A stretch of DNA of 64,000 bases, taken from contig NC_003280.10 in assembly GCF_000002985.6 (NCBI RefSeq), positions 8,180,501 through 8,244,500 on the forward strand. Direction: 5' to 3'. A program made the translations under genes and the position numbers. Of this stretch, positions 59,885 to 62,027 are shown one piece after another. This stretch comes from Caenorhabditis elegans. Its lineage: Eukaryota; Nematoda; Chromadorea; Rhabditida; Rhabditidae. A model generated the notes under the pieces. It did no database searches. It saw nothing but the letters and a program-made list of their open reading frames with translations, and was not told where the DNA came from. Within the stretch, counting starts at the first letter, position 1. The number at the start of each line of letters is the position of its first letter.

Positions 59885-59922
59885 GGTCTTCCGAGAACAT
59901 ATACTAAAATTGGACCAATAGA
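59885..59922 (+). pseudogene. U6 snRNA-like sequence, 5' part (interrupted)
   Basis: Thirty-eight bases match the 5' part of U6 snRNA: CTTCCGAGAACATATACTAA, then AATTGGACCAATAGA. Relative to the worm U6 sequence as I remember it there are three substitutions (second base, one in GGAACA, one in ATACAG). The copy stops exactly where the 1.7-kb element begins and resumes at 61641. No proximal sequence element or TATA box of a U6 promoter is evident upstream, so this is probably a pseudogene even before interruption. Confidence 0.88.
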
Positions 59923-61634
59923 CACGGCCTCTCTCAATTTCATTTATTTCAAAATTCCTCTTTTTCTCTCACACTCTCTCACGTGAGATTGAAAATTGAA
60001 TAATATATGTGTTTTTAAATTAAATTCAAAATATTGACGAAGAAACAACTTTGGTATAAATACTGATTTGTTAGGACCGATACCAAATGGTAATTTTCGG
60101 ACATATTTGATCTCGTAGACAACGGCTCACTATTTCAGTGATCTTTAAAGTAATAAAAAATTCTTCAAAGTTTGGTACAGAGAAACTGAAGTAGTTACAT
60201 TTGTAGAAACTTACATAACTTATAAACCTACCGTATTCCTATCGTACCCAATTACCGTATTTCCTCTATTAGTCTTGAATGCAAGACTAATTTTCAATTG
60301 ACCCGTAGGGGTGCAAGACTAATAGAGTCCGCATGACTGATTTTCGATTGGTCCGTAGGGGTGCAATACTAATAGGGGTGCAAGACTAATAGAGGAAATA
60401 CGGTATATTTTTTGTCGTACACTGATGGAAAACTGATGAGACTTTCCCGGCATGGTTCACAACCTGAGTTATTCATTGGTGGCCTCGGTTTCAGTCGGTT
60501 GCCGACTGTAAAGACGGGATCCCGTACGGGAAAAACAAAAAGTGACATATGAAAAAGGTATCAGACGGTATTAATCCAGACTTTGTTATTTTTTGCTTCT
60601 TTGAGTTGATTGTGCAAACGGATAATTTCGAATACCTTCGTGGTATCTCTATCAAAGTTTTTCAAAGCATTGAATCTTTACATAGCTTAAACTATGTATT
60701 TTGTGAGAATAGCCAAGTATTATGAACATAGAAAATGTTTCTTGTGTTATCAAGATTATTTTTGTAGTTCAAAGTTTCTTGATAGCTTTTCTGGTTACCG
60801 AGTTATATGTTTTCAAAAGCGTTCACATCAACTATTATGCTTGCGGTTGTCCAAAAATTACAATCGCATTGTCTTAAAACTGAAGTTACTCAATCAGTTT
60901 TTGATCAAATCAGGTGATTGACATCTTAATCTCTTCCTTAGAGAATTTTGCAACTTTTGGTGAGGTTGAATTTTTGATTATGTCTTGGTGCGTCTCGTAA
61001 AATTAGGAAAACCCACCAAAAATTGTCGTTTTTTAACGATTTTTGGAGTTTTCAGGCCTAATTCTTGTTTTGAAGATGCCGACGTCAATTTTCATCAAAA
61101 AACCTTCATCAAAAACAGAAAATAATCAGAAAAAAATTATCTACAAAATGGTGGCCTTCAATTTTCAAATTTCTCTTTTCAAGGATCACTAGAGGTCCCG
61201 AAAAAATCCATTTTTCGAGGTAGCCTTTTGTTTTTCCGTCTGCCGGCGTCGTGAACATCACTAACCTAGATATTTCCATAAAATAGATACACTTAGTCTT
61301 AATTGACAATATATTAATAAAAAATTTAAAGATTTATCAGCGAATCGCCGGCTTTAAACAGTTTTGTCTGGAAAATCACTAATTTTAAACTTTCACATGT
61401 GGGCGTATTCATAGGTGATTTACAATTTTGCCCTTTTTTCATATAATTTCTATGTGTTTGATCAGGCAGTTAGTAAATTTTTATTAGATTTTGTTCACTA
61501 TCAGCCGTTTCCGGCCTATTTTACCGTTTTCAGTACAAATTCGGCTCAAAAAGCTCACTCTCTCGCCCATGAGAGACGCAGAGAAAGTTCATCACGTCAA
61601 TTTGATTTATTTTTTGAAATGAAGAGAGGCCGTG
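59923..61634. mobile_element. 1.7-kb inverted-repeat element inserted in U6 copy
   Basis: The ends are inverted: CACGGCCTCTCT at 59923-59934 and its perfect complement at 61623-61634, with further looser AT-rich similarity inward (ATTTCA, ATAAAT-type). The six bases AATAGA flank it at 59917-59922 and 61635-61640. Removing the element and one copy of AATAGA restores a U6 colinear with the consensus length, which fixes the insertion point exactly. No transposase-like frame is present (longest about 75 codons), so it is non-autonomous. A second palindromic element is nested inside. Confidence 0.88.
60253..60405. repeat. Nested 153-bp palindromic repeat
   Basis: The ends are perfect 25-bp inverted repeats (TACCGTATTTCCTCTATTAG onward at 60253-60277; complement at 60381-60405). 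The inside has related tandem segments (CCGTAGGGGTGCAA and CAAGACTAATAGAG repeated). The terminal TA on both sides fits a Tc/mariner-type target duplication. It lies inside the U6-inserted element, so it is either a later insertion or part of that element's sequence. Confidence 0.82.
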
Positions 61635-61640
61635 AATAGA

Positions 61641-61703
61641 GAGAAGATTAGCATGAACCCTGCGCAAGGATGACACGCAAATTCATAAAGCGTTCCAAAT
61701 TTT
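61641..61703 (+). pseudogene. U6 snRNA-like sequence, 3' part (interrupted)
   Basis: Sixty-three bases continue the U6 sequence from where it broke at 59922: GAGAAGATTAGCATG, CTGCGCAAGGATGACACGCA, and CGTTCCAAATTTT. About four substitutions versus remembered worm U6 lie in GGCCCC (AACCC here) and CGTGAAG (CATAAAG here). Together the two parts equal the full U6 length. The T run at the end has four T's. Confidence 0.9.
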
Positions 61704-62027
61704 ATATCAACGGTTGATGTCCGAGTGGTAAACGCTTGAAATTATTTTCAGCCTCTTCCTTGTACTATTTTAATCCTACTTAAGACTAAAAACCAGCTTC
61801 TCCCAAATACCCTTCAATTGACTTTTTGAATATAACCCTGACCCACACAAATTTATGTTCCCACGCCTTCTGAATAGGTCAGAATAAGCCACGAGGCGGA
61901 CGGAAGACGCCTACTTTTATATTATTCTGAGGTTTTCTACCTCTCTAATCTGATCGTCATTTACTCACAAAAATAATCCCCTCATCATTATATTTTCAGG
62001 TATATTCAACAGAAAATCAACATTAGA

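Follow-up and report, generated by a model that had tools for sequence, protein, structure and literature searches.

A putative non-autonomous Chapaev-like element in a decayed U6 copy of Caenorhabditis elegans, and the 5-6 bp target site duplications of its family

Near the right end of the window, as we call the whole 64,000-nucleotide stretch of Caenorhabditis elegans DNA analyzed here, which lies at C2:8180501-8244500, a U6-like sequence is interrupted after base 38 by an element of 1,712 bp. The 5' part of this pseudogene (59885..59922, forward strand; 38 nt, placed by aligning the joined flanks without gaps to the intact U6 gene L011) ends in AATAGA, the left target site duplicate (59917..59922, forward strand), and is followed by a non-autonomous DNA transposon (59923..61634, forward strand), the right AATAGA (61635..61640, forward strand) and the 63-nt 3' part of the pseudogene (61641..61703, forward strand). 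The transposon opens with the 12-bp terminal inverted repeat CACGGCCTCTCT (59923..59934, forward strand) and closes with the exact reverse complement of this repeat (61623..61634, reverse strand). Joined with a single AATAGA, the flanks align to L011 of the same genome over 98 bp with 0 gaps and 6 mismatches, and the U6 copy as a whole differs from L011 at 7 of 101 bases, counting a mismatch at position 2 that was added by eye. The first-pass annotation had described two colinear U6 parts of 38 and 63 nt belonging to one copy split by 1.7 kb, an insert with inverted ends and AATAGA at both borders, and a U6 of exact length once the element and one AATAGA are removed; coordinates and alignment agree with each of these statements, the insertion is resolved to the base, and the possibility that the two parts come from separate intact U6 copies was not borne out. 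It had further held that a known RNA as target makes the pre-insertion sequence certain; that sequence is indeed known, but what gives it is the AATAGA duplicate together with the gap-free join rather than U6 proper, where AATACA stands at this place.

In the Rfam analysis, U6 was recognized at 63.2 bits, above the cut-off, with a match made up of the 3' part plus the end of the element as a false 5' part, and was the sole match at gathering in the whole 64-kb window. Directly downstream of the U6 copy, positions 61713-61737 resemble by eye the consensus of a leucine or serine tRNA in its 5' part, and this stretch was absent from the Rfam matches at E up to 1. The element itself harbors a nested palindromic repeat of 149 bp (60255..60403, no strand assigned, borders set by eye) with TA on each side (60253-60254 and 60404-60405); the palindrome is without counterpart in the diverged family copy L018, which reads as an empty site with one TA, and fragments akin to it are scattered over many further sites of the genome.

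A search of the genome (100,286,401 bases, 7 contigs) revealed that the 12-mer occurs 29 times per strand vs. 6 times per strand for the reversed-pattern control, while the 20-base end, with as many as 3 mismatches allowed, was counted 35 times on one strand and 37 on the other vs. 2 and 1 for its reversed control. A DNA search with window positions 59925-61635 as the query, in which 40 of 422 candidates were scored and copy counts are accordingly lower bounds, yielded at least 81 matches, with at least 16 (window included) near the full query at 95% or more. We read 23 copies at both ends, comprising the window copy, 19 more 1.7-kb copies (including the diverged L018) and the relatives L032, L044 and L027. 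Excluded from the duplication counts were the one-ended or chance 12-mer sites (L013, L014, L016, L020, L022, L026, L028, L029, L041 and L043), L021, the pair L067/L068, whose second end was uncaptured, and the single end L071. The CAC...GTG termini of Chapaev type are present at the ends of the window element and of the listed copies, and since the flanks are unlike between copies, these represent separate insertions and not segmental duplicates. These copies support the earlier reading of a mobile inverted-repeat element lodged in a single U6-like copy and flanked by a 6-bp duplication, and the different ends that would have spoken against it were not seen, as the other copies share the same ends.

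Exact duplications flank most of these copies, 6 bp in length in 14/23 and 5 bp in 7/23, with none in 2/23 (L015 and L031), as compared with 506 mismatched pairs of left and right flanks that gave none in 480, 3 bp in 20 and 4 or 5 bp in 3 each, with no pair reaching 6 bp. A genome search for copies with 6-bp flanking duplications, as proposed in the first-pass annotation, thus does find them, but the length is not fixed. By the same token, its view that ends and duplication size can be assigned without other copies is right for the ends of the window element and their 6 bp, but the full picture, with its 5-bp cases, needs the other copies. Two local arrangements are recorded here. L024 (C2:10847986-10849686) and L025 (C2:10853417-10855117) lie in opposite orientation 3.7 kb apart and are 99.94% identical with different flanking duplications, which would reflect two insertions of recent date or else gene conversion. 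At L043 (C5:20560295-20569295), two ends of a related element point the same way at a distance of 4.9 kb, with an identical left flank, an arrangement that looks like tandem duplication.

Both AATAGA duplicates carry G where L011 has C; as this off-consensus base is common to the two duplicates, the change predates the insertion and the U6 copy was already decayed when it was hit. Divergence points the same way, with 7/101 bases changed in the U6 copy vs. 11/1,711 in the element relative to the majority of 20 aligned copies, 4 of these changes being private (Fisher p 2.6e-5). In the 70 bases upstream, the U6 copy matches L011 at 16/70 positions (shuffles: mean 18.6, sd 3.5); L011 and L012 have 63/70 in common over the same interval. 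The U6 copy was therefore decayed and without a U6-type promoter before the insertion, and its start at the first base of the RNA in the absence of such a promoter would fit an RNA-derived pseudogene.

We considered whether a working U6 gene was destroyed by the insertion, or whether U6 is a preferred target of this family. Given 23 random insertions and 29 U6-like stretches, the expected overlap is just 0.0007, which is rare if counted post hoc; however, any recognizable target would draw notice, so this post-hoc probability is not a fair test. We regard both versions as very unlikely as evidenced by: 1) the absence of a U6-type promoter upstream, where similarity to L011 does not exceed the shuffle mean; 2) the seven changes in the U6 copy, one of them present in both duplicates; 3) the joined flanks (300 bp per side) of the 23 copies, which when searched for U6 show it at the window copy alone and at none of the other 22, so that U6 is not the target of this element. 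The insertion of a transposon into a dead U6 copy is real and well resolved, yet ordinary as an event; the split copy is a clean, base-resolved insertion with no functional consequence evident.

The combination of a 6-bp duplication and a U6 target also calls to mind Dada, a superfamily of transposons that target multicopy RNA genes, U6 included, and make 6-7 bp duplications, both of which appear in the cited passages of PMC8869645. The duplication length fits, being exactly 6 bp in the 14 copies noted above and five in another seven. Insertion in multicopy RNA genes does not, as U6 is found at the window copy only; an ARAGORN search for tRNA gave none in the 23 joined flank pairs and likewise none in 20 of the other loci, and Rfam at gathering gave no match in the same 20. 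In addition, Dada-U6 is reported in those passages to target CTTGCGCAG, another place in U6 (PMC8869645). We have rejected Dada based on the target site within U6 and the flanks of the other copies, with the CAC...GTG ends and the DUF1280 domain of a linked element, described below, as further differences, and the chance that the element belongs to this superfamily seems to us the most remote of the readings weighed.

What might have moved the element is better sought among its longer relatives. The longest stop-to-stop frame overlapping the window element is 76 aa, and a comparison of the element with the L027, L046 and L050 proteins gave no match at E up to 10. L027 (C2:14147193-14151186, 3,994 bp) has the same 12-bp ends as the window element; the 20 bases of the left end of the window element are present at both ends of L027, and the right end of the window element differs from them at 2. 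Its similarity to the window element amounts to 66% over element positions 810-1712 and 1-163 (911 and 181 aligned columns). Two frames of L027, 263 and 545 aa in length, match DUF1280 (E 1.9e-27 and 9.1e-24), and L027 further has candidate D1 and D2 residues, CxxC, H(4)H and the glutamate of RSSEQ, residues that we assigned ourselves. Its C(2)C and H(4)H are separated by a PHD-like insert that scores below threshold as a PHD finger (17.4 bits vs. a cut-off of 24). The transposase motifs sought for clade membership were found in L027, L046, L048, L050, L051 and L052; L027, and not the window copy, is the helper candidate.

Two shorter relatives add to this link. L044 (517 bp, 6-bp duplication) matches L027 at 98% over 459 bp and retains a 102-aa transposase remnant that is 93% identical; it is a deletion derivative of L027. 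L032 (1,565 bp) likewise has a 6-bp duplication and contains coding remnants at 72% and 43%, 58 aa each. Together, L044 and L032 tie 6-bp duplications to coding sequence of DUF1280 elements within the same ends. These data bear on whether the element may belong instead to another superfamily with a 6-bp variant (e.g. hAT6 or Mutator-like), with its CACGG ends having converged on those of DUF1280 elements. In the cited passage of PMC12730594, hAT families are credited with duplications of 5, 6 and 7 bp, and the window copy encodes nothing. Convergence at the ends would hardly explain, however, a match to L027 that reaches far past them in both aligned blocks, nor the direct tie between 6-bp duplications and DUF1280-element coding remnants in L044 and L032, and we deem this placement unlikely, though less so than a Dada origin or a preference for U6.

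Other DUF1280 elements were found in the same genome. L046 and L047 are 4,753-bp elements, 100% identical, with ends CACGGT...ACCGTG and 4-bp duplications. L048 has a 6-bp duplication and imperfect ends (10/14); since its scan also gave an 8-bp match sharing only CAC at the first bases, which shows the noise of such scans, L048 gives weak support. Scans of L051, L052, L083 and L084 for CAC...GTG ends with duplications gave none that were convincing. A profile of four DUF1280 proteins against PDB sequences, at E up to 5, gave 9 matches, none of them RAG1 or Transib; one was a designed knot protein and eight were chromatin proteins, aligned in the PHD-like region. L021 (C2:2266130-2270967), with 4 kb between its 12-mers, was tried as an autonomous partner and rejected, its flanks being without duplication and its match to the window element limited to two stretches close to one end, 123 and 126 bp long. 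L021 has a weak DUF1258/Mirage match; here a window-family end (123 bp at 88%) lies beside a DUF1258 (Mirage-type) frame, and near-equal DUF1258 matches occur at six other places.

The ends, the copies, the duplications, the sequence link to a DUF1280-carrying element, the motifs and the earlier decay of U6 are all seen in the data. We consider it highly probable that the 1.7-kb elements form a non-autonomous cut-and-paste family moved in trans by a DUF1280 (Chapaev/CMC-like) transposase, and that a decayed, promoterless U6 copy was hit by chance. A DUF1280-type DDE transposase from a relative of the 4-kb L027 would be supplied in trans, would bind the matching ends and cut at their CAC...GTG termini; the ends would then be joined to the target strands at a spacing of 6 bp (at times 5 bp), with the AATAGA repeats left on either side once the gaps are repaired. 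Both the cut-and-paste chemistry and the cross-mobilization of the 1.7-kb family, by an L027-type transposase or by a lost closer relative, are what we infer. As no transposase remnant was detected in the window copy and identity to L027 is only ~66%, the element's own helper could be some other element, or one since lost. The window element is thus probably a variant that is Chapaev-like and non-autonomous, with duplications of unusual length.

The duplication length merits closer attention. Because the 5-bp cases occur in differing registers, most of them cannot stem from 6-bp duplications by a single point mutation, although L024, which falls in a T run, could; one-base loss from 6-bp duplications could also have produced the 5-bp cases. 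The two classes differ in composition, with G+C at 2/35 bases of the 5-bp duplications vs. 30/84 in the 6-bp class (per base, Fisher p 0.0005; per site, Mann-Whitney p 0.014). Among the 14 empty sites with a 6-bp duplication, T is never found just to the left and A never just to the right (0/14 each), a weak symmetric preference seen on viewing 26 positions, uncorrected. In the L046 group, duplications are 4 bp in 5/7, 6 bp in 1/7 and none in 1/7, vs. 5 bp in 5/9, 6 bp in 1/9 and none in 3/9 for the L050 group (L065 being 6 if one mismatch is allowed). Among exact calls, 4 bp rather than 5 bp or more is found in 5/6 of the L046 group vs. 0/27 of the other two groups (Fisher p 2.5e-5); for 5 vs. 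6 bp, the L050 group does not differ significantly from the window group (p 0.06). The 6-bp case in the L046 group is L078/L077 (C1:2639789-2642500), an exact GGGCGC contrary to the trend of its lineage.

In the protein alignment, the PHD-like insert is present in L027, L048 and L050 and is a gap in L046, L051 and L052; for short copies, we assumed the insert state of the coding element of their group. An unrooted tree of the six DUF1280 proteins of this genome, some with joined frames, sets L046, L051 and L052 apart from the other three, and as this split matches that of the insert, insert and ancestry are confounded. We tentatively propose, as a possibility that we rate somewhat short of probable, that relatives of the Chapaev transposase set the stagger by lineage, mostly 4 bp without the PHD-like zinc insert and 5 or 6 bp with it, with a one-base wobble within a family. 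If true, duplication length, a widely used superfamily label, would be an evolvable trait of a RAG-related transposase group, exceeding the reported 2-5 bp. With a 6/5-bp family beside mostly-4-bp DUF1280 relatives in one genome, the cause of the stagger is testable in an easy laboratory animal, and this in a transposase group with ties to the source of V(D)J recombination. What deserves following is the duplication of 5-6 bp within a Chapaev-like group, which may already stand in repeat databases.

Transib ends are of the CAC...GTG type, and Transib duplicates 5 bp. The window element is like Transib and RAG in its ends; it is unlike Transib in that its duplication is 6 bp rather than 5, and the profile search of PDB sequences was without RAG1 or Transib match. 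With Dada-U6 it has in common the 6-bp duplication and a U6 sequence as target, differing in the U6 site, in the location of the other copies examined outside RNA genes, in its CAC...GTG ends and in the DUF1280 link. Among the matches listed in our literature searches (including those with the 9-mer CACGGCCTC, Chapaev and duplication length), the window family is nowhere described, and further papers may describe it. In the parts of the literature cited here, DUF1280 is equated with Chapaev transposases and grouped with RAG1 (PMC3985635), and Transib and Chapaev are grouped together (PMC4411706). C. elegans Chapaev-1 and Chapaev-2 are known, with Chapaev-2 silenced by small RNAs (PMC7917558, PMC5554785, PMC6873666); Chapaev-2 is given as a piRNA target (PMC7917558) and Chapaev-1 as expressed in early embryos (PMC6873666). 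The CMCT clade is credited in the cited passage with 2-5 bp duplications and with the motifs C(2)C and H(3-4)H (PMC12730594), both of them present in L027; the window family, with a mode of 6, departs from that range, while its 5-bp cases (7/23) fit. Chapaev elements generally show, by the cited account, 3-4 bp duplications and CAC/GTG ends (PMC4079192). The window element resembles them in its CAC...GTG ends and through the linked 4-kb L027, with its DUF1280 domain, DDE candidates, C(2)C and H(4)H. It differs in being a non-autonomous copy whose family duplicates 5-6 bp rather than the 3-4 bp of that account, and in that L027 has a PHD-like insert separating C(2)C from H(4)H. Given that it departs from Chapaev in the 3-4 bp duplication, we name the element Chapaev-like rather than file it as Chapaev.
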